Origin: a virus
IMG/VR virus record: IMGVR_UViG_3300033147_000109
Span: 1-24,645 of that record
Length of the DNA: 24,645 bases
Strand: one strand, 5' to 3'
The stretch's first letter is position 1; each line of letters starts with the position of its first letter. The position numbers and the translations under genes were made by a program. Below, in pieces: positions 1,966 through 16,379 of this stretch. The notes under the pieces were generated by a model that saw only the letters and a list, made by a program, of their open reading frames with translations, did not search any database and was not told the DNA's origin.

Positions 1966-3024
1966 CTACAACCCCACTGGACAAGAGCATGGATTTTTCT
2001 TTAGTCTGGAACGGAATTGTTTAAACTTCATAGATCTATTCCATATATAATCAATGTCTCGCTTCTTTGTTATTTGAACTCCCCACTCCGGATGATCTGC
2101 AAAACTACATGGGATTAGCTGCATTGATGGACTAATATAAACAGACATCCTTGAAGATTCACATGTATCAATTGCCATCTTTTGTAACTCAGATGGTTCT
2201 GAGTATTTTAATACATGATTGATCAAACAACTATCCATTCCAATTTTAAATTTAGCTTTCGGTTGAAAAGCAAGATCAGCAAATGATTGTATTTGCATCT
2301 TGCTGGGAATTAATTCCCTTTTATCTCTTCCTTGACCTTGAGGTTTAAATAGAAGGAAAACAACGGCATTTAATTTGTCAATATCAATTTGTGATATTTT
2401 TCCTTCACCAACTTTAATTTTATTCCAAGGATTGTAACCATGTAATATTTTCATTGATCTATCAAAGTTAGGGCGTGAGAATATAAGATGAATATTTGTT
2501 TTGATTTTTGCATCCATCAATTTTGAAATAGCTTCATATGTATCTGGAGTACGATAATCACTTACTGCTACGGCACCACACATCTTTGATATTTCAATTT
2601 GTTCGTCTGTCAATTGACATCCGCTAGTTGTATAATTTGGGATGACTCCATTGTTTCTAGCGTATTCTACAATCTCTTTAAATTGAGGGTGTAGATTTGG
2701 GTCTCCTCTACCTCCCAATGCTACTTGATTTACATGATGCTTTACCTGATCTATAATACTCTTGAAGTTTTCAAGAGTCATATGAGGTTCCTCAACTCTT
2801 CCCTGATAACAAAAATAACAAGAGTTTAAACAACTCCCCATAATACCAACGTCAATTAATAGTGGTAATTCTGTTTTAAAGGGATCTTTTCCATTTTTAC
2901 CTTTGACAACTTCTAGTCCTGTTTTTGTATTGAAATGGACTTCGTATTCAATATTCTCAAAGTGTTTGTCAAAACTCCCTTTAATAAAAATAGTACCTTC
3001 CGAAATAATCATTTTTTGAAACAT
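1966..3024 (-). CDS. Radical SAM enzyme with SPASM-like C-terminal cysteines
   Basis: A 352-aa radical SAM protein. The signature C65-x3-C69-x2-C72 (CLNSCYFC) binds the catalytic 4Fe-4S cluster, and GGRGDP at about 104-109 sits at the SAM-binding GGE-like motif. The C-terminal part has five more cysteines (about 266, 288, 306, 346, 348), ending in PCSCPVG, which resembles the auxiliary-cluster SPASM or twitch domain of peptide- and protein-modifying radical SAM enzymes. The frame is open to an ATG at 3078, but that overlaps the upstream gene by 44 bases and lacks a ribosome site. The ATG at 3024 has GAAAGGAAAAGT before it and sits 10 bases after the upstream stop, so I chose it. The substrate is unknown. 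It lies between two small proteins that both begin with a Ser-run followed by FI. The superfamily is certain; the subfamily is inferred. Confidence 0.93.
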   Translation of the reverse strand: MFQKMIISEGTIFIKGSFDKHFENIEYEVHFNTKTGLEVVKGKNGKDPFKTELPLLIDVGIMGSCLNSCYFCYQGRVEEPHMTLENFKSIIDQVKHHVNQVALGGRGDPNLHPQFKEIVEYARNNGVIPNYTTSGCQLTDEQIEISKMCGAVAVSDYRTPDTYEAISKLMDAKIKTNIHLIFSRPNFDRSMKILHGYNPWNKIKVGEGKISQIDIDKLNAVVFLLFKPQGQGRDKRELIPSKMQIQSFADLAFQPKAKFKIGMDSCLINHVLKYSEPSELQKMAIDTCESSRMSVYISPSMQLIPCSFADHPEWGVQITKKRDIDYIWNRSMKFKQFRSRLKKNPCSCPVGL

Positions 3025-3034
3025 ACTTTTCCTT

Positions 3035-3469
3035 TCATAGTTTTTTGAATAAAGGATCGTCATCTTCAGATTCATCATCCAGTGCTTTCAATCCATCATC
3101 AAAATCTTCTAATGTAGTAGATTTTTCTTCAGATTCTTTTTTCATCCTTTCACCAAATTCCTTATCGGTTTCAAGTGTTGGATCTACATCAGGAGCTACA
3201 ACCACTTCCTGACTCTCCGGGTCATTAAATTCTTTAACTATTTCTTCCTTCGCTTTAACCAACGCACCCTTCGCCTTCTCTATTGCTTCTTTAAATTCAT
3301 CTTTGACATCTGAAAATGTGCGGTCGACATCTTCGCTGACTATCGGATTTTCGTCAACTTTTACCTCAACATCTTTCTTTTCCTCATCGTCATCAAAAAA
3401 TATATTATACATGACTACAAGAAAAATAATTGTGGGTAAACTTATGAAACTACTACTACTCTTTGACAT
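3035..3469 (-). CDS. Acidic N-terminally membrane-anchored protein
   Basis: A 144-aa protein with a probable transmembrane anchor near the N-terminus (ISLPTIIFLVVMYNIFF, residues 9-25) followed by a highly charged, mostly acidic and probably disordered or helical tail (DDDEEKKDVEVKVDE, then repeated E/K/D-rich stretches to DPLFKKL). With only eight short residues before the hydrophobic stretch (MSKSSSSF), the tail orientation cannot be fixed from sequence. The start at 3469 has AAAGGAGACAAAT before ATG, a strong ribosome site. It is the first gene of the reverse cassette, and the next gene (radical SAM) starts 10 bases after its stop. The short N-terminus SSSSFI also occurs in the Ser-motif protein at 1443-1964, encoded by different codons. 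I do not recognise the family. Confidence 0.8.
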   Translation of the reverse strand: MSKSSSSFISLPTIIFLVVMYNIFFDDDEEKKDVEVKVDENPIVSEDVDRTFSDVKDEFKEAIEKAKGALVKAKEEIVKEFNDPESQEVVVAPDVDPTLETDKEFGERMKKESEEKSTTLEDFDDGLKALDDESEDDDPLFKKL

Positions 3470-4135: not shown

Positions 4136-4858
4136 ATGGCTGTAAAAAATTCATTTGCGAACGTAGCCAACAATATCTTAAGTCGTAACTTCGGTGGTAC
4201 TGTCGCAGGAGTGGCTGATCCATACGTAACTGGATATCATTTTATCTGGTTTGCAAAATTGCCTCCTAAATTAGCTGAGTATGCAAATTTAGAAAACAAT
4301 GCAATAATAAGCAATCTTCTTGCTGGAGCGTGCTTATCAGTAACACCACCAGGTGGAACTTTGAATAAAGTTGAGTTTACAGGATTAGGTGGTATTAAAT
4401 GGGCAGTACCTGCAAATGTTGATTACGGAAACTCTGTCTCTGTTAAGTTTTTAGAGTTCAACGGAACTCCAATGCTTAATATTTTTCACGGATGGATTAA
4501 GATGATTCGGGATTATCGTTCCGGAGTATCTAATCTAGTAGATGGTGAAGACTTGAGTGGATATACCAAATCGACATATGCCGGTTTAATGTATTACTGG
4601 ACTACTGCTCCGGATGCAAAAACGGTTGAGTATTATGCTGTTTATGATGGCGTATTCCCAACAAAAGATCCACAAGATTTATTTACAAGTGATGTTGAAA
4701 CAATCGGTCGTCTAGATAGTGAAATTGAATTTAACGTTGACTATGTATGGCACGAAGATTGGGTCAAAGATAAGTGTACAGAATACGCAGAAAAAGTATT
4801 CTCAGTTAAAGCAGACGTCATTGAAAGATATGGCGATGCAATTAAATCATCAAGCTAA
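4136..4858 (+). CDS. Tail tube protein (T4 gp19-like)
   Basis: A 240-aa protein whose subunits should stack to form the inner tube through which DNA leaves the virion. Supporting features are the length, the compact beta-rich central part with PPGGTLNKVEFTGLGGIKW (about 70-88) and YGNSVSVKFLEFNGTPMLNIFHGWIKMIRDYRSG (about 99-132, given as the region), and the later segment on PTKDPQDLFTSDVET followed by FNVDYVWHEDW. This layout of beta segments followed by a helix and a DY/DF loop is typical of gp19-family tubes. The start at 4136 has a near-perfect AGGAGG site that overlaps the stop of the HAD gene. In T4 the tube gene directly follows the sheath gene; here about 3.3 kb with an opposing cassette lies between them. 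A good though distant match. Confidence 0.82.
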   Translation: MAVKNSFANVANNILSRNFGGTVAGVADPYVTGYHFIWFAKLPPKLAEYANLENNAIISNLLAGACLSVTPPGGTLNKVEFTGLGGIKWAVPANVDYGNSVSVKFLEFNGTPMLNIFHGWIKMIRDYRSGVSNLVDGEDLSGYTKSTYAGLMYYWTTAPDAKTVEYYAVYDGVFPTKDPQDLFTSDVETIGRLDSEIEFNVDYVWHEDWVKDKCTEYAEKVFSVKADVIERYGDAIKSSS

Positions 4859-4889: not shown

Positions 4890-5930
4890 ATGTTTATTAC
4901 AGAAAATCAAAACGTTGGAGATTCAGTTCTATTTTTACTTTCTTCTCGTGAAGCTCTTGCCAACATTGTAGAACATTCTAAAACAGAGAATGCAGATTCT
5001 CTGGTTAAATTTATTTACAATGAAGCATCAGATTATGAAATTATGCATCTGTTGTTAAATGGAAGCTTACCAGAAGAAAAATATAATGACGTTGCAGAAA
5101 TGATACTGTTCAGCGACTTCAAACAAAGTATGCTTATAAATAAAGACTTCGTTACTGAAATGGTCGGTGAAGATATTTTTGATAACATTCTTAATGAAGT
5201 AGATTGTCTTTATATGGCAGGTTCTACTGCGCGTCCAGTTCTTGAGTTTCTATCTCAAGACGATATGGAAGTTACATTGGCCATGATGGTTAGTGAACAA
5301 GGTGGAAATATTGGTGCGGCTGGGAGAAAAGCTTTAGCGTATAAATCCAAGATGGCCGCTGCTGGAAGACAAACAGGAATGGGTGGAGAAACAAGCAAAC
5401 TTACTCTTTGGAAATCAAAGTTGGCTTCTGCTATTAAAACTGGTAAAGCTGATGTTGCTGCAAAGTATAAAGCTATGATCGCTAAAGCTCAAGCAGCATT
5501 GAAGACAGCTACTGCTGGCGCAAAAGGTGAAATAACAGGTAAAGGCGGAAGAGCTGCTCCTACTACAATGGCTAAAGTAAAAGCTGCTGGTAAGTATGTA
5601 GGTGGAAAAGCCGCTGCTTTTGCTAAAGCCCATCCAACTGCTGTGAAAGCTACCGGTGGTGCTGCTGGTGCTGCTCTTGCTATTTATGCAGGTGCTAAAG
5701 TCTATAAGAGATTTTTCAGTCAAGCTGCTAAAGCGTGTGGTGGACAATCTGGCGCTTCAAAAACACAATGTATGGGAAAATATAAGAAACAAGCAATCAT
5801 GAAACAAGCAGCTGCTATTCAATCAGCTTCTGGAACATGTGCTAAATCAAAGAACCCTGAAAAATGTAAAGCAGGTGTTGCTACGAAAGTACAAGCTCTT
5901 AAAGCTAAAGCTGCTCAAATTGCTGCTTAA
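4890..5930 (+). CDS. Ala/Lys-rich virion-type protein with C-terminal cysteine quartet
   Basis: A 346-aa protein starting at ATG 4890 after AAAGGAGAGAAAAAA. The frame is open further upstream, but that would overlap the tube gene and lack a ribosome site. Residues 1-135 form an acidic helical domain. Residues 140-280 are rich in Ala, Gly and Lys, with a Gly/Ala hydrophobic stretch at about 253-270 (ATGGAAGAALAIYAGAK) that could insert into a membrane or pack as a glycine zipper. The C-terminus holds four cysteines at 283, 294, 317 and 326 in a K-rich helical context (CGGQSGASKTQC, CAKSKNPEKC), a pattern I recall from hypothetical proteins of large T4-like phages. Its place directly after the tube suggests a tail or neck component, but the function is not established. 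A strong terminator follows. Confidence 0.75.
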   Translation: MFITENQNVGDSVLFLLSSREALANIVEHSKTENADSLVKFIYNEASDYEIMHLLLNGSLPEEKYNDVAEMILFSDFKQSMLINKDFVTEMVGEDIFDNILNEVDCLYMAGSTARPVLEFLSQDDMEVTLAMMVSEQGGNIGAAGRKALAYKSKMAAAGRQTGMGGETSKLTLWKSKLASAIKTGKADVAAKYKAMIAKAQAALKTATAGAKGEITGKGGRAAPTTMAKVKAAGKYVGGKAAAFAKAHPTAVKATGGAAGAALAIYAGAKVYKRFFSQAAKACGGQSGASKTQCMGKYKKQAIMKQAAAIQSASGTCAKSKNPEKCKAGVATKVQALKAKAAQIAA

Positions 5931-6043: not shown

Positions 6044-6829
6044 ATGTTTAAAGGGTTTGATGTGAAGTTACCGGAATATGAAGTTATTACACCACAGACG
6101 CATCTTTCATTTACTGTGAGATCGCTGAATGTCAAAGAAGAAGAAAGACTTAAAGGGAGTTTAATGACTCCTAATAAAATTCATGAACATCTAAATAAAT
6201 GCATATTTGACTCCATCGTACAAAAACCTGAACAAGTAACTGACTATGATAGCTTTTTAAAAGCTGTTACATTGAAAGATAGAGATGCTCTTTTATACGG
6301 ACTGTATCATATTTCTTATGAAGAAATAAGAAACTATGATGTTACATGCGGTAGTTGTACTAAAGAATATCCAGTTACTGTTCAAGCCTCATCAACATTC
6401 AACTACCTACCATATCCAGATAAAAATGTATTGACCAAAAAAATTCCAATTGATCTTGTTGCGACTGAGGGAGTTACCTGTACCATAAAACAACCAACGT
6501 TGTTTGAGGAAATGGTTGGAATTAAAAGTATGGTTGGAAGTGTTGATAAGAGTATGGATTTAATTACAGAGACTTTGATTATTGATAAGTTTCAACAAAA
6601 TCCAGACGAGGGTGATACAGTTATATATTCAGAAAGATCTGATGTTGTTGATGCTTATCTATCATTACCTGCTAAAGATAAAAGGCAGATCCATAAAGAG
6701 TATAGGGACAAGTTTGGACAATACGGAATCCAACTCAAAATGAAAAGTAATTGTATTCATTGTGGGGAAGAGGAAGAAATTGATCTAGATCTTGTAGCAA
6801 ACTTTTTTCGCATGGTCTACACTTTCTGA
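6044..6829 (+). CDS. gp26-type baseplate/tail assembly protein with zinc ribbon
   Basis: A 261-aa protein in its own frame. The start ATG at 6044 has AAAGGAGG 7 bases upstream; a TTG at 6026 in the same frame lies before the ribosome site and is rejected. It has the look of the T4 gp26-type baseplate/hub assembly family: a beta-rich N-terminus (LPEYEVITPQTHLSFTVRSLNV), a helical middle, and two CxxC knuckles at C102/C105 and C237/C240 that would bind one zinc, followed by an acidic helix ending EIDLDLVANFF. Related proteins continue past FF with a helical chaperone tail. Here the frame stops six codons later, but the expected tail is present in another frame (6810-7013), joined at a T6 run. 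The short form (261 aa) and a frameshifted form (about 322 aa) may both be made, as with the lambda G and GT chaperones. Confidence 0.8.
   Translation: MFKGFDVKLPEYEVITPQTHLSFTVRSLNVKEEERLKGSLMTPNKIHEHLNKCIFDSIVQKPEQVTDYDSFLKAVTLKDRDALLYGLYHISYEEIRNYDVTCGSCTKEYPVTVQASSTFNYLPYPDKNVLTKKIPIDLVATEGVTCTIKQPTLFEEMVGIKSMVGSVDKSMDLITETLIIDKFQQNPDEGDTVIYSERSDVVDAYLSLPAKDKRQIHKEYRDKFGQYGIQLKMKSNCIHCGEEEEIDLDLVANFFRMVYTF
6803..6809 (+). promoter_or_regulatory. Candidate programmed ribosomal frameshift site TTTTTTC
   Basis: In the zero frame the ribosome reads AAC TTT TTT CGC at 6800-6811. Slipping by +1 (TTT to TTC) or by -2 on the T6 run puts it in the frame that is open from 6798 to the TAA at 7011-7013. 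The zero-frame stop is only six codons downstream. CGC, an uncommon-looking Arg codon in this AT-rich genome, sits in the A-site position and could slow decoding. The site resembles the Mu tail-gene slip site GGGGGGCGA (homopolymer of six followed by CG), reported to shift -2. Confidence 0.6.
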
Positions 6830-7013
6830 TGCGATAAATAAATATCGAAATACCCTTGAACAAAACATATTTTCTTGTATGGAGATGAGCAAGCAAGGGT
6901 ATCAGGATGTTGTAGATATGCCAATTAAAAGATTTTACAATTACCTCAAATGGAAAAGTGACTTAGAAGAAGATAAGAAAAAGATGATCGAGGAACAGAT
7001 TAAAGGTGGATAA
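6810..7013 (+). CDS. Frameshift-encoded C-terminal extension of the gp26-type protein
   Basis: This open stretch of 67 codons starts right at the T6 run and ends at TAA 7011-7013, two bases before the gp25 ATG. It encodes a helical tail: AWSTLSDAINKYRNTLEQN, then a conserved-looking SKQGYQDVVDMPIKRFYNYL and an E/K-rich end. The S..DV..MP..R pattern is what gp26-type and tape-measure chaperone proteins carry at their C-terminus. There is no usable ribosome site before the internal ATGs at 6879 or 6885, so separate translation is unlikely. The simplest reading is a fused product of about 322 aa made by frameshifting; a one-base sequencing error in the T run would give the same picture. The gp25 ribosome site lies in its last codons. 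Confidence 0.65.
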   Translation, partial: AWSTLSDAINKYRNTLEQNIFSCMEMSKQGYQDVVDMPIKRFYNYLKWKSDLEEDKKKMIEEQIKGG

Positions 7014-7015
7014 TC

Positions 7016-7456
7016 ATGGCAAATTTACTTGATCGTTTCAAGACTCAAGTTATTGGATCAGAAGAAAGTTTGCGTGATTATCTTTCGATTATTGCAGCTA
7101 TCGGAGATTTTAAAAGGATAGATGATTTAAATGTTATAATCAATTCATGGAACAATATATTATTAACTCCGAGAGGAACTTATTTACACGATCCTGAATT
7201 TGGTAGTGATCTGTATAAATATGTTTTTGAACCAGCAGATGATTCTACAGTTGATGGTATAAAAAGAGAAGTAGTTGATAGAATTAATTTATATGATGAT
7301 AGAGCAGCTATAGAGGATGTTGAGGTCACCATTTCAAACAACGGTAAACAAGTTAACATATCAATATTTGTAAATTACCAAGGTGAAAAAGGTATTTTAG
7401 ATGTTAAGTTTGATGATACTACATTTGCTGATTTCTTAACGAGGACAGCTACATAA
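7016..7456 (+). CDS. Baseplate wedge protein gp25-like (GPW/gp25 family)
   Basis: A 146-aa protein matching the GPW/gp25 family, a small wedge protein that clamps the gp6-type arms and starts sheath polymerisation on the baseplate. The diagnostic run LLTPRGTYLHDPEFGSDLYK (residues about 50-69) contains the conserved L-x-T-x-x-G and P-E-F-G elements, followed by VFEP. A C-terminal beta-rich part with VEVTISNN and VNISIFVNYQ completes the fold. The length is close to the T4 protein (about 130 aa). AAAGGTGG lies 7 bases before ATG 7016. Its stop overlaps the next start (TAATG at 7454-7458), so the next gene is translationally coupled. Its place before a gp6-type gene is what is expected for a baseplate cluster. 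Confidence 0.93.
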   Translation: MANLLDRFKTQVIGSEESLRDYLSIIAAIGDFKRIDDLNVIINSWNNILLTPRGTYLHDPEFGSDLYKYVFEPADDSTVDGIKREVVDRINLYDDRAAIEDVEVTISNNGKQVNISIFVNYQGEKGILDVKFDDTTFADFLTRTAT

Positions 7457-8120: not shown

Positions 8121-10631
8121 ATGGCAGAGATTCCTATTTCACAAAAGGTAGCCCTTTCCAGAGAAGAAAACAGAAATATGATCATAGCGGAATTAAAGAA
8201 ATATCTAGAACTAGAAAACGTTGATCTTACAAAGTCATCATTTCTATCTTTTGTTGTAGAAGCATTAGCTACTCTTACAAGTAATTTAATGTTTTATCAA
8301 ACATCAGTATATCGTGAATTTTTCCTTACCAAAGCACAACTCCCGGAATCAATTTATAACTTAGCTGCATTTCTTGGTTATGAGGGTGGTTTGGCATCAT
8401 TTTCTAATGTTGATGTTTTGTTTACTATGCCTTTTGGTTTCTCTGAAGATACAACATTTATAATACCGGAAGGGTTTAAAGTAAATGCAAATGACGGTGT
8501 TGAATTTTTGACATATTATAAAACAACAATTACAATTGAAGGTAACTCATCAGTAGTTATAACAGCTCAAGAAGGTACTAAAGTTTTTAATGTACCCGTT
8601 GTAATTGAAGATAGTGTATTTTCATTTGCTTTAAATTTTAAACAATTAACTTTTGATATACAAGAATTTCAAATACCATCCGATCTACAAATATATCAAT
8701 TTTATTCAACTGCAGTTCCTTTTGAGGCAAAGTTGGCTGAAATTTTAGTTGAGGTAAGAGAACCAGGAGAAACTGGATGGGATACATATACAGAATATAG
8801 TAGCTTATATTTGATGGACGAAAATACAAGAGGATATGTTGGAAGGAGAAGTGATACAGGAATAGATCTATCATTTGGTAATGGTATTATTGGTTATCAA
8901 CCTCCTGCTGGAAGTACTGTTCGTGTAACTTTAACACTTACACAAGGAGAAGATGGAAATGTAATTGCCGGTTCAATAAGAACTGGTGATAGGATTTATA
9001 ATGAAACTGATGCTGGTGTTACAGAAATAGTTAGTTATGATATTGTAAATACCATTGCAGCTACTGGTGGTTCTGATGAAGAAGGCGTAGAAGAAATAAG
9101 ACGTAATTCAATAGCTAATATTGCTGCTCTTGAAAGAACTGTAACTGAACAAGATTATGTTGATTCCAATATTATTATTGATGATTCTCCAATAGGTCCA
9201 AATTCACTTCCTGTATTAAAACGATCTGATGTAAAGGTCAATGAAATAGATTTGTTTATAACTCTTTTATATCAAGGTCTTATTGTTCCAACTAGAAATG
9301 CATTTGAAACTTTTAATAATACAGTAATTCCGAGAAAAACAATACTTGATATTAATGGAGTTGATTTTTATACTTTATTTGATATGATTATTGATTCCCT
9401 TAATACTGTAGCTGATTATAATTATGTTATGTTTCAAATTGAACAAGTCCCTACTTTAGTTACAAGTTTTAATTCTGATTATAGTTTATATGCAGATAAT
9501 TTAATTGTGACAACAGCAGGAACTAGTCAAGCTGAATATAGGTTACTTTATAATACTACAGCAGATGATCCTGAAGATGTTACTGCAAAAATGTTGATTT
9601 TAGAAACAGGGGCAGAATATGATATGGTTAACGACTCTTCTGCTAATGAATTTGTTTTAATCTTTCCTGATTATACTGCAATTGATGAGGGTGAGTTAAC
9701 ATATTTCTTTACACTTGAACATCCATCTGAGGGGTTGATTGGAAGGTATCAAAATAGTTTTATTTTAAGACAATCATTGGAGAATTATACTAGATCAAAT
9801 GTTTTTCAAGACGGAACCAATTATACGGTATATGACATTCCTGTGATTGAAAAAGATTATTATGATGGAGTTGATCAACGAGAATTTGAAACTCAAGTTT
9901 TACAGTCATTATTATCAAGTATGACATTTGAAGATTATAAAATGATGACTGATTTTGTCAATATAAAATTCGGTAATACAACTGGTCGTATGCAGAATAT
10001 GCAACTTAACGATGTTAATACTCAAGCTGTTATTGATTTTAGATCTGATCCTGGTGATCCTTGTGGTCCGGTCGGCAGTCAATGTACCCAAGGTCAAAGA
10101 TATATTGTATTAAATGGTCGAGGAGAATTTGAAGGTCATGATAATGATATTGCAGAGTGTACTAGAACTACTTCGGATTCAACTGCCGCTGATTCAACTG
10201 CTGTAACCTGGGTATATACAACACCAAATACAGATGATATGGTATATGTAGATCTAAAAGGTTTTAAATATATTTATGGTGCTGGCGGATGGGTATTACC
10301 TAATTACTTAATACCATTACAATTAAAATTAGATGTATTTCAAACTAGTGAATATACGGGATCTATATCCACTCTTGCTACTACTATACGGGATACTTTA
10401 GTTGCGGCGTTTGCGGATAGATTTGGTATTGAAATTAACCTTTATCGGTCTGAAATAATTGAGGTTGTTCAAGAAATTGATGGAGTAGATCATTGTAGAT
10501 TACTTGACCCTGGTTCAAATATTTTCTTTAATTTTGATTTAACAGAATTGACTCAAGAGCAGCTTTTAGAATATGGTCCAGAATATATATACTTCACAAC
10601 AGATGATATTGAGATCAAGATATTTAAATAA
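8121..10631 (+). CDS. Baseplate wedge protein gp6-like (baseplate J family) with inserted domain
   Basis: An 836-aa homologue of T4 gp6 (660 aa), which forms the dimeric ring of wedges around the hub. The N-terminal part is typical: a helical segment (REENRNMIIAELKKYLEL, SFLSFVVEALATLTSNLMFYQ, about 14-68), TKAQLPESIYNLAAFLGYE (about 74-92), then the beta domain and the J-type region with LSFGNGIIGYQPPAGSTVRV (about 251-270) and GSDEEGVEEIRRNSIAN, ERTVTEQDY. The ribosome site is AAGGATATTAAAT before ATG 8121. It is longer than T4 gp6, partly because of an extra small beta domain at about residues 640-725 containing GQRYIVLNGRGEFEGHDNDI and GAGGWVLP, which looks like a DUF2793-type module. The last base pair of its stop is shared with the next ATG (TAATG). 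Confidence 0.9.
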   Translation: MAEIPISQKVALSREENRNMIIAELKKYLELENVDLTKSSFLSFVVEALATLTSNLMFYQTSVYREFFLTKAQLPESIYNLAAFLGYEGGLASFSNVDVLFTMPFGFSEDTTFIIPEGFKVNANDGVEFLTYYKTTITIEGNSSVVITAQEGTKVFNVPVVIEDSVFSFALNFKQLTFDIQEFQIPSDLQIYQFYSTAVPFEAKLAEILVEVREPGETGWDTYTEYSSLYLMDENTRGYVGRRSDTGIDLSFGNGIIGYQPPAGSTVRVTLTLTQGEDGNVIAGSIRTGDRIYNETDAGVTEIVSYDIVNTIAATGGSDEEGVEEIRRNSIANIAALERTVTEQDYVDSNIIIDDSPIGPNSLPVLKRSDVKVNEIDLFITLLYQGLIVPTRNAFETFNNTVIPRKTILDINGVDFYTLFDMIIDSLNTVADYNYVMFQIEQVPTLVTSFNSDYSLYADNLIVTTAGTSQAEYRLLYNTTADDPEDVTAKMLILETGAEYDMVNDSSANEFVLIFPDYTAIDEGELTYFFTLEHPSEGLIGRYQNSFILRQSLENYTRSNVFQDGTNYTVYDIPVIEKDYYDGVDQREFETQVLQSLLSSMTFEDYKMMTDFVNIKFGNTTGRMQNMQLNDVNTQAVIDFRSDPGDPCGPVGSQCTQGQRYIVLNGRGEFEGHDNDIAECTRTTSDSTAADSTAVTWVYTTPNTDDMVYVDLKGFKYIYGAGGWVLPNYLIPLQLKLDVFQTSEYTGSISTLATTIRDTLVAAFADRFGIEINLYRSEIIEVVQEIDGVDHCRLLDPGSNIFFNFDLTELTQEQLLEYGPEYIYFTTDDIEIKIFK

Positions 10632-13067: not shown

Positions 13068-16000
13068 TTAATCAGAATCTAATCTATATACAATATTATT
13101 AAAATAATCCATACCCGCTGTACCAGCTCGTCGACCTGCATCCAATCCTCCTTGAACTGTTGAACTCTGCTGTATAGTTGTTATAGCATTATTTGTTGCT
13201 TGAACTACTATAGCAGATCCTTCTGCTCCAGTTTTCTTAGCAATATCTCCAAGTTCTTTTGATTGTTCTTTAATTGCATTACCAATTTCTTTTCCTATTT
13301 TTTTACCACTTGCCAATTCTAATTCGGTAGCATTAATAATTATTTTTTTTGCTTCCATAACTTGAGGAAGTCTATCTTTATATTCTTCTTTTACTCCTTT
13401 CGCAAATGTTTTATATGTTTGTGGGTCGGTCATCATTTGATATCTATCACCCATCTTAGATACTATACCTTGTAGTTGGGCATCTGCTTCAGCTTCTGTC
13501 ATACCAAGTTCTTTTGTATAGAATATTTTAGCTTCCTTAAATATTGCTTTTGATTTACTATCTAATTTATTCCACCAGTTTTTTCCAAGACCTTTAGCAA
13601 GCATTAACGATTGAAGTATTTTATTGTCATAGTGTTCTTTTTTTCTTTTTACTGCTTCTATAATACCAGGTTTTTCAAAGGATTTCATCCTTTCTTCTTT
13701 AGATGAACTCCACTTAACAGATCCTTGTTTTCTTAGATCTATTTGTTGTGTTTTTAGAGCTTCTAATCGTCTTTTCTCTTTTTCTTTTGCAGCAAGTACT
13801 GGACCAAGCTGTTTTACGTCTCCTGCTAATTTATATTTATCTCCATAACCTCTAAGATAGTTAAGAAATGTTTTTTCTCTAAATCTACCATACTCAAGTG
13901 CAGTTTCACCTCTTACCACATTTCTTGTTCTGAAATGACGTTTATCCCATTCATTTCTCAGGGCAGTAACACCCTGAGGATCATATAATAGATATTCATG
14001 CATTTGACTATCTCTATATTGTTTCATGCCTGCATGAATATCAGCTAATTCTGGTTCGCCATAGAAACCCACTCCTTGCATCTGTTGTGTAGCTGTGGCA
14101 CTCATTCCAAGTCTCTCAAGTTTCGTTTTTACTCTACCCTTATGCTGGGTGTAAAGTCCTTTTATATCCGCAGCAGATTTAGGTTGAGTTCTAGCTTCTT
14201 GAACTGATACTTTTAATTTCTTAGCTTGTAATGCGTCAAATTTCGCTTGTCTTTCTCTTTTCTCTTTCTCTTTTCTCTTAATATATGGGTCAATAATCCA
14301 CTTTTGTATAGCTGTTCCAATCCCAGCCCCACCCAATGCTGCAATAACTGGAAGCCAAAGTGCAGAGGTTCCTAATGCAGTCATAATCGTAGGACCAAGA
14401 CCCATAATAGCAGTCATGATCACACCACCAGTTGCAAACATACCGCCGATAGCAGCTCCAACAGTACTAAATAAACCTGATATAAAAGTTCCTGCCAACA
14501 TAAGCCATCTCATTATTCTATCTCTTGTCAAGAATTTTCTTAAACGAGATGCCATAGAAATTGAAGAACTAGCAGCTCTTTCAAATAAGTTTTTTCTTTT
14601 TTTCTCTTTCTTTTTATTTTTTCTTTCTTCTATAAGTTTTGGAAGCTCCTCTTTTGCTTTTTCATATTCTAATGAAAGAACTCCGCTTTCGAGATTTTTT
14701 CTTTCTATCTCGTTTCGCATATCCGTCAGCTTCCATTCAGTAATTTCTTTCTGTTGTGTTATGTACTCTTGATATACAGGGAGAAAGTTTTTATAATAAT
14801 CTTCAAGCTGTTCTTGTATTCCTTTAATTGTTACTGTTATTCCTTTTTCCCCAGTTCCTGGACCATGCCCCTTAGCTTCTCCTATCAGGGTTTGAGATTT
14901 TTGTTTGATAAACAGGTCTCTGATTAAACCTGGAGCTCTTGAGAACGTACCCGGACTATCGTCTGCAGGTCCGCCGCCAGTTATTAACCATTTGGCAAGA
15001 CTTGATCCTATATCCCCACCTTTCTTCATTCCTGCGCCGAACTTCCCACCCACTTTTTTACCAATTGCTTTAGCTCCTTTAGCAGCACCACCAATAGCTA
15101 ATCCAGGAACAAGACCAAGAGCTGCAGACGCTACTTGATTAATAGACCATTTCTTTTCTTTCGGAATACCTTTGACTCTTTGATATGAATTACCTGTTAA
15201 TTTAGCAGCGGTATCTCTATTAGCTTGAGCTGATAATTTGATGAGAGGCATCATATTATCTAGACGCCACATTAAATCAACATAAAGAGTTGCTATATTT
15301 TCTGCTGTAGCTTGTAATGGATTTTTAGCTTTAGATAGTTTAGTTCTATATCCACCGAAACCCCTTACTCTCATAAAAGCTCTTACTATTTTATATGGAG
15401 TTGTTAATGCTCCAGCAGTTGCTTTCCAAGCCAATTTCATTTTTACAAGAGTTGGATGGTTAGCTAACATTTCATCCCATACTTGTTTTTGGGTACCGAT
15501 TTGAGCTCCAAGAATATCCTGAATAGCAAGTAACGATCTAGCCATACGTTCAACTGGTTGTTCTGTAAATGCTCGCTCACCTACTTCCTTGTAGGTTCTA
15601 ATAAAACTACGAAATATATTCATCTGACTTTTATCAGATGCCGAGCTACTCTTAATGTAACCCTTCAAATCTGTTGTCATATGTAGAGCAGTTTTTTCAG
15701 TAATCTTTGCTAAATCTTTAGTAGTAGAGATACTATCGTCGATTCGCTTTAGGATTTTTTCAATAGGAGCTACAATTTCTCCAGCATGAAGCTCTGTCAA
15801 ACCTCCCTTCTTTACAAAACCACCAGATTGCATCTTTGGAATATTTGTATCAGCACCAGGTCCCTTACCACCTCGTCTGAAAATTCCAGCCAAACTACCA
15901 AACGCTTTTCCGATAGATGTTTTCATTCTCTCAGCAGCTTTTTTGAAAACATCCGTCTCCATAAATTTAGCGGCGAAATACCCATATATAGGAGTTGTTT

Positions 16001-16379
16001 TTGCTAATGCCATTGCAACCGTATTTTGTTTGTTAAAGCTAATATCCTCACTAATAGCTTTTCCATATTGCGCTATGGTGTCTTTGGTTGCTTTTGCTGT
16101 ATCGACCGTAATAGTTTTTACACCCGCAGAAAGAGCACCAACAGTATCAGCAAGTTTATCTAAGACTGTCGTCATAGATTTTTGAACCATACTTATTTGT
16201 TGCCCCTCATCTACTGCAGTTTGGGTTTCAGTAATTCTCTGCTTTACATCCTTTTGCATATTGGATACAGTTTTAGAGACATTACTAATATTCCCAATAC
16301 GATCAATATTAGAATCAGCGGTTTGTGTAATACTACCCGGAGTGTTTGCTGGGGGAATATTGTCACCTCGTATAGCCAT
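13068..16379 (-). CDS. Tape measure-like tail protein
   Basis: A 1103-aa protein, the longest in the window, with tape measure character. The N-terminal 120 residues are coiled and polar (VSNMQKDVKQRITETQTAVD). GGFVKKGGLTELHAGEIVAP at about 184-203 matches the Gly-rich 'G-x-V-x-x-G-x-x-x-x-x-x-G-E' motif common in tape measure proteins. A long K/E-rich coiled coil lies at about 545-605, followed by a cluster of hydrophobic helices at about 620-690 (MLAGTFISGLFSTVGAAIGG, VIMTAIMGLGPTIMTALG) suitable for membrane insertion on DNA ejection, then another charged helical half. At about 1.5 angstrom per residue this would measure a tail of roughly 165 nm. T4 gp29 is about 590 aa, so this tail would be longer. 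TAGGAGTAACAT precedes the ATG at 16379. It lies between hub-side and tube-cap genes, as expected. Confidence 0.75.
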   Translation of the reverse strand: MAIRGDNIPPANTPGSITQTADSNIDRIGNISNVSKTVSNMQKDVKQRITETQTAVDEGQQISMVQKSMTTVLDKLADTVGALSAGVKTITVDTAKATKDTIAQYGKAISEDISFNKQNTVAMALAKTTPIYGYFAAKFMETDVFKKAAERMKTSIGKAFGSLAGIFRRGGKGPGADTNIPKMQSGGFVKKGGLTELHAGEIVAPIEKILKRIDDSISTTKDLAKITEKTALHMTTDLKGYIKSSSASDKSQMNIFRSFIRTYKEVGERAFTEQPVERMARSLLAIQDILGAQIGTQKQVWDEMLANHPTLVKMKLAWKATAGALTTPYKIVRAFMRVRGFGGYRTKLSKAKNPLQATAENIATLYVDLMWRLDNMMPLIKLSAQANRDTAAKLTGNSYQRVKGIPKEKKWSINQVASAALGLVPGLAIGGAAKGAKAIGKKVGGKFGAGMKKGGDIGSSLAKWLITGGGPADDSPGTFSRAPGLIRDLFIKQKSQTLIGEAKGHGPGTGEKGITVTIKGIQEQLEDYYKNFLPVYQEYITQQKEITEWKLTDMRNEIERKNLESGVLSLEYEKAKEELPKLIEERKNKKKEKKRKNLFERAASSSISMASRLRKFLTRDRIMRWLMLAGTFISGLFSTVGAAIGGMFATGGVIMTAIMGLGPTIMTALGTSALWLPVIAALGGAGIGTAIQKWIIDPYIKRKEKEKRERQAKFDALQAKKLKVSVQEARTQPKSAADIKGLYTQHKGRVKTKLERLGMSATATQQMQGVGFYGEPELADIHAGMKQYRDSQMHEYLLYDPQGVTALRNEWDKRHFRTRNVVRGETALEYGRFREKTFLNYLRGYGDKYKLAGDVKQLGPVLAAKEKEKRRLEALKTQQIDLRKQGSVKWSSSKEERMKSFEKPGIIEAVKRKKEHYDNKILQSLMLAKGLGKNWWNKLDSKSKAIFKEAKIFYTKELGMTEAEADAQLQGIVSKMGDRYQMMTDPQTYKTFAKGVKEEYKDRLPQVMEAKKIIINATELELASGKKIGKEIGNAIKEQSKELGDIAKKTGAEGSAIVVQATNNAITTIQQSSTVQGGLDAGRRAGTAGMDYFNNIVYRLDSD

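Follow-up and report, generated by a model that had tools for sequence, protein, structure and literature searches.

The tail assembly chaperones G and G-T of phage lambda and its relatives were reportedly the subject of work by Xu et al. in 2004. They are two products with a common N-terminus, obtained by recoding close to where the first ORF ends, and for phage tail genes in general −1, −2 and +1 shifts have been listed, with T4 named as the exception (PMC5009743). For the halovirus HSTV-2, the recoding of a tail gene is described as very likely +1 (PMC5009743). According to Vladimirov 2022, as relayed in PMC10885494 and PMC12846349, the T4-type proteins gp26 (short) and gp51 (long) are also tail assembly chaperones, and T4 itself has a short gene and a fused long gene. 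In viruses of eukaryotes, UUU_CGN is the +1 motif of influenza A PA-X and of plant amalgaviruses, with all four CGN codons in use, and in reticulocyte lysate the influenza site gave about 1–2% shifting (PMC5052127).

The window analysed here, a 24.6-kb IMG/VR contig (24,645 nucleotides), contains a contractile-tail module in which the end of a sheath gene (1–858, phrog_23) and a gene for a putative tube protein (4136–4858) precede a gp26-type gene. The latter is directly followed by the gene for the baseplate wedge protein gp25 (7016–7456, plus strand; PF04965 at 7.3e-09, phrog_261 at 1.7e-21), and a gp6-type wedge protein is encoded at 8121–10631. The large terminase lies on the strand opposite to the tail module, and a tape-measure candidate with a weak match only is found on the other strand (13068–16379). 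The gp26-type gene adjoins gp25 and not the tape-measure candidate, a point against the chaperone reading given below, whereas lambda G/G-T is located directly upstream of its tape measure gene and uses a −1 shift. The tail module also holds a radical SAM-like gene (1966–3078; phrog_7293, phrog_16999). The gene 5′ of gp26 (4890–5930) encodes a Lys/Ala-rich protein whose C-terminal part is conserved and contains Cys; in one relative (L235, 323–2972) the gene is present as two to three tandem divergent copies.

The gp26-type gene occupies positions 6044–6829 of the plus strand and codes for a protein of 261 aa, beginning with ATG 6044 and ending with TGA 6827–6829. The candidate shift site AAC TTT TTT CGC (6800–6811) consists of the codons AAC 6800–6802, TTT 6803–6805, TTT 6806–6808 and CGC 6809–6811, after which frame 0 reads ATG GTC TAC ACT TTC TGA (MVYTF-stop, 6812–6829) and overlaps the +1 frame. 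The +1 frame reads GCA TGG TCT and onwards from GCA 6810, and it remains open for 67 codons up to TAA 7011–7013, two bases ahead of the gp25 start codon at 7016. Joined to frame 0, this extension (6810–7013) gives a long form of 322 aa. An earlier, sequence-only reading of this DNA had described a stop six codons after the T run, an open stretch of 67 codons ending two bases before gp25 and a D-V-V-D-M-P-I-K-R string in the shifted frame, all of which are found as described, the string being in the +1 frame.

That reading had also assigned the gene to the gp26 type, and the family searches bear this out. The 261-aa body matches PF12322 (T4_baseplate) over residues 10–256 with 48.8 bits (9.5e-13), above the curated cut-off of 24.5 bits, as well as the baseplate hub family phrog_150 at 1.1e-14, and both T4 gp26 and T4 gp51 match PF12322. 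The zinc-ribbon label that it had attached to the protein fares less well: two CxxC pairs, its sole basis, are present, and the searches called no zinc family. The long form was modelled with AlphaFold on a relative (L016), and the model has a pLDDT of 72, with low values around the junction. In a viral structure library the model matches T4-type hub chaperones and other proteins of large phages, and its best two matches among solved structures, both modest and covering residues 1–93, are yqbN and the HK97 tail assembly chaperone gp13, with Z values of 4.8 (3klu) and 4.7 (2ob9_A). The best reading of the gene is that of a tail assembly chaperone with a short gp26 form and a long form that carries a gp51-like tail, and the analogy to the lambda chaperones G and G-T drawn in the sequence-only reading is supported.

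The likeness of the extension to gp51 is fainter than that of the body. T4 gp51 matches phrog_150 over residues 3–248 (2.6e-84) and, with its C-terminus, the small-gp51 family phrog_634, and so is a gp26-like body with the tail joined in frame. The +1 extension, which is helical in the AlphaFold model of the relative, aligns colinearly with the gp51 tail domain (phrog_634) over 61 profile columns with a score of 19, a weak value given a null of 10.6 ± 2.8 with a maximum of 21.9. Profile comparison of the extension with the T4 gp51 tail directly found nothing, and a BLAST search among named phages with the fused protein matched the body and never reached the tail. The profile of cyanophage gp51 links to T4 gp51 (probability 92) and weakly to the +1 extension.

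Scans of viral contigs and genome contigs yielded 125 unique loci with both parts of the gene, and two more that are cut by contig ends and lie outside this set, of which one (L131) nevertheless has the site. In 125/125 unique relatives the break is at the identical residue, TTT_CGN stands at this place and the extension is in the +1 frame, not in the −1 frame that goes with a canonical −1 heptamer. None of the 125 has the two frames joined without a slip site, and the only joined arrangement is that of gp51, the second gene of T4. A sequencing error or a decayed gene could be imagined from the homopolymer at the break and from one assembled contig, an idea that has next to no probability left and is refuted by the relatives, in which the same break recurs across many metagenomes and the sequence to either side of it is under purifying selection.

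On the 125-taxon tree, the slip codon is the sole codon of 255 with zero third-base changes (median for third codon positions, 31 changes), and the C and G that follow it show 0 changes, compared with 37 at the N. The codon preceding the slip codon is TTT in 119 of the relatives and TTC in the other six, the latter resulting from about four independent changes, and the frame-0 stop lies at a near-constant distance (7 codons in 108/125). Arginine is encoded by CGN at 60/60 slip sites versus 97/593 Arg codons in the rest of the gene. Among the sequences listed, the residue that GNN specifies in the +1 frame can be Ala, Val, Gly or Glu; since this residue varies and AGA would also serve for the frame-0 Arg, the invariance of CG is not accounted for by either protein. 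The codon before the T run also departs from the usage of the gene (AAC 85 : AAT 12, versus 275 : 973), and with AAC preferred over AAT, a T_TTT_TTT −1 site does not arise.

Purifying selection acts on the extension, also on the part that precedes any ATG. Pairs with at least 72% identity give an omega of 0.13 in the body, 0.11 between the frame-0 stop and the first Met of the extension, and 0.10 in the remainder of the extension, while the other two frames of the extension give 1.2 and 1.5. Within the overlap after the slip, pS drops to 0.02 in the +1 frame, as one would expect where bases serve two frames. These values bear on the notion that the downstream frame is a gene in its own right, started independently, as might be supposed from the small genes annotated here in related phages (PBS1 gp121, AR9_g230, cyanophage gp51). 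Conserved +1-frame peptide is present ahead of the first ATG (6879), where omega is 0.11, and ATG 6879 has no good ribosome site, as the sequence-only reading had noticed of the internal ATGs; a separate gene is thus very unlikely, and an internal start for the extension was rejected. The programmed recoding that had been proposed is strongly supported: the site and extension common to all relatives and an omega of about 0.11 in the extension frame versus 1.2–1.5 in the others go far beyond chance.

As to how the shift occurs, the gene very probably encodes a two-form tail assembly chaperone by means of a +1 slip of tRNA-Phe at UUU_CGN. Most ribosomes would make the short form of 261 aa. A fraction would pause with tRNA-Phe on UUU (6806–6808) in the P site and the Arg codon CGN in the A site, whereupon the tRNA could slide one base forward and re-pair with UUC (6807–6809), so that decoding would restart at GCA and lead to the long form of 322 aa with its helical, gp51-like tail. 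If the two forms act like lambda G and G-T, the tape measure protein would be held by the part common to both, and the rarely made tail would bring in the tube subunit. A +1 slip predicts the junction peptide SNCIHCGEEEEIDLDLVANFFAWSTLSDAINK (FFA), and a −2 slip predicts FFFA.

The sequence-only reading had left the direction open between +1 and −2, citing phage Mu as a parallel for the latter. A −2 shift on the T6 run, as reported for Mu, would reach the same reading frame, and the run is kept in 119/125 relatives. For re-pairing, though, it needs a UUU two bases upstream, and this is missing in the six relatives with TTC TTT CGN, where tRNA-Phe would land on UCU; moreover, the invariant element reaches into CG, which −2 re-pairing does not need. 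A move of the Phe tRNA from UUU to UUC by +1 is possible in 125/125. Because TTC TTT CGN permits a +1 move, spoils a −2 move and breaks the T6 run, +1 recoding is favoured, a −2 shift is very improbable and the Mu parallel is not supported, the invariant core being the +1 motif TTT_CGN. The same variants weigh against slippage of the polymerase on the six-T homopolymer found in most relatives, by which a mixed mRNA pool would be translated normally. The run is broken in six relatives that retain the +1 extension, AAC rather than AAT keeps it short, and the invariance of CG would have no explanation, all of which makes transcriptional slippage a highly improbable source of the long form.

The site assigned to the +1 slip of tRNA-Phe shares with influenza PA-X and the amalgaviruses the sequence UUU_CGN with any N, the +1 frame and the move of the Phe tRNA from UUU to UUC. 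It differs in that those viruses use eukaryotic ribosomes and unrelated genes and that the phage site adds a near-constant TTT in front. No stimulatory structure was found at the phage site: a conserved hairpin or pseudoknot downstream was sought by folding single sequences, but the folds did not outdo those of shuffled ones and varied from relative to relative, and Rfam gave no match. Avoidance of TTT_CGN in other genes was looked for in two relatives' genomes and not found (25 seen versus 31 expected, and 38 versus 30); since the motif is not rare there, it may be weak by itself, and a further stimulator is possible. HSTV-2 is similar in its very likely +1 recoding of a myovirus tail gene and different in its archaeal host.

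Among homologous genes, the T4-type gp26/gp51 pair is one of the closest, sharing PF12322 and phrog_150, a short form and a long form that ends in a small helical tail, and a break at the matching place beside a poly-T stretch. In contrast to the +1 shift at UUU_CGN of the clade studied here, T4 has two separate genes, and its T4-type relatives go into the −1 frame: for cyanophage, rhizobial and Aeromonas members, 81/82 unique loci have the end of gp26 at U_UUU_UUC (or UUG), and the −1 frame runs from there into small gp51. The sequence-only reading had seen in a recoded gp26-type gene of a T4-like phage an extension of the strategy to a different tail lineage; such recoding has precedents, given the published T4-type chaperones and the canonical −1 heptamer at the same place in T4-type cyanophages. 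The bases TTTTTTCG are frequent at the T4-type −1 site (T_TTT_TTC_G; L264, L269–L348), and in its common form the +1 site (TTT_TTT_CG) always consists of them, with registers one base apart; a one-base indel could link the two modes. In Aeromonas phage 65.2 (L267, 2190–2354), the −1-frame gp51-like tail is unannotated despite T_TTT_TTC and an open frame.

A homologous body with a similar helical tail in another frame at the matching residue is also found in PBS1, AR9, BpSp, S6, MarsHill, SA1, Machias and phiR1-37, where, in contrast to the present clade, the tail is in the −1 frame, after CTT TTT or CTT TTC, and is annotated as a separate small gene. Independent sequences from these phages are few, and their −1 tail is suggestive. 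In the AR9/PBS1/S6/phiR1-37-type jumbo phages, the gp26-type gene and its shifted tail, the latter annotated as a small hypothetical gene, lie directly upstream of the phage GroEL gene (L070, L071, L073, L074, L077, L349, L350, L351).

Regarding the host, tmRNA is a bacterial molecule, and its presence in a relative of 248 kb, next to about 30 tRNAs including Phe(gaa) and Arg(acg), makes a bacterium the most likely host of that phage. The same genome (L239, 6784–6860) has a tRNA with a CTA anticodon, called tRNA-Pyl by ARAGORN and possibly an amber suppressor. The only relative from the genome collection (L235) was placed in the bin of a Thermoplasmatales archaeon and is probably a mis-binned phage contig.

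The T4-type gp26/gp51 chaperones and their link to G/G-T were known; what appears to be new is the +1 variant at UUU_CGN, found in a clade of large, uncultured jumbo phages. With confidence slightly better than even, we propose that the UUU_CGN shift, otherwise known from eukaryotic viruses, is used by a clade of bacterial viruses through slippage of a CGN-stalled tRNA-Phe without another stimulator, and that recoding of one homologous chaperone gene has switched among −1, +1 and gene duplication with the junction residue fixed. The 125 unique sequences form a large natural data set for a phage +1 site defined base by base, a site that matches the influenza PA-X motif on what are most likely bacterial ribosomes. 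The small orphan genes after the gp26-type genes of AR9, PBS1, S6 and phiR1-37 are probable C-terminal parts of one protein, and the T4-type tail chaperone would keep its two-product design while the way of making the second product changes.
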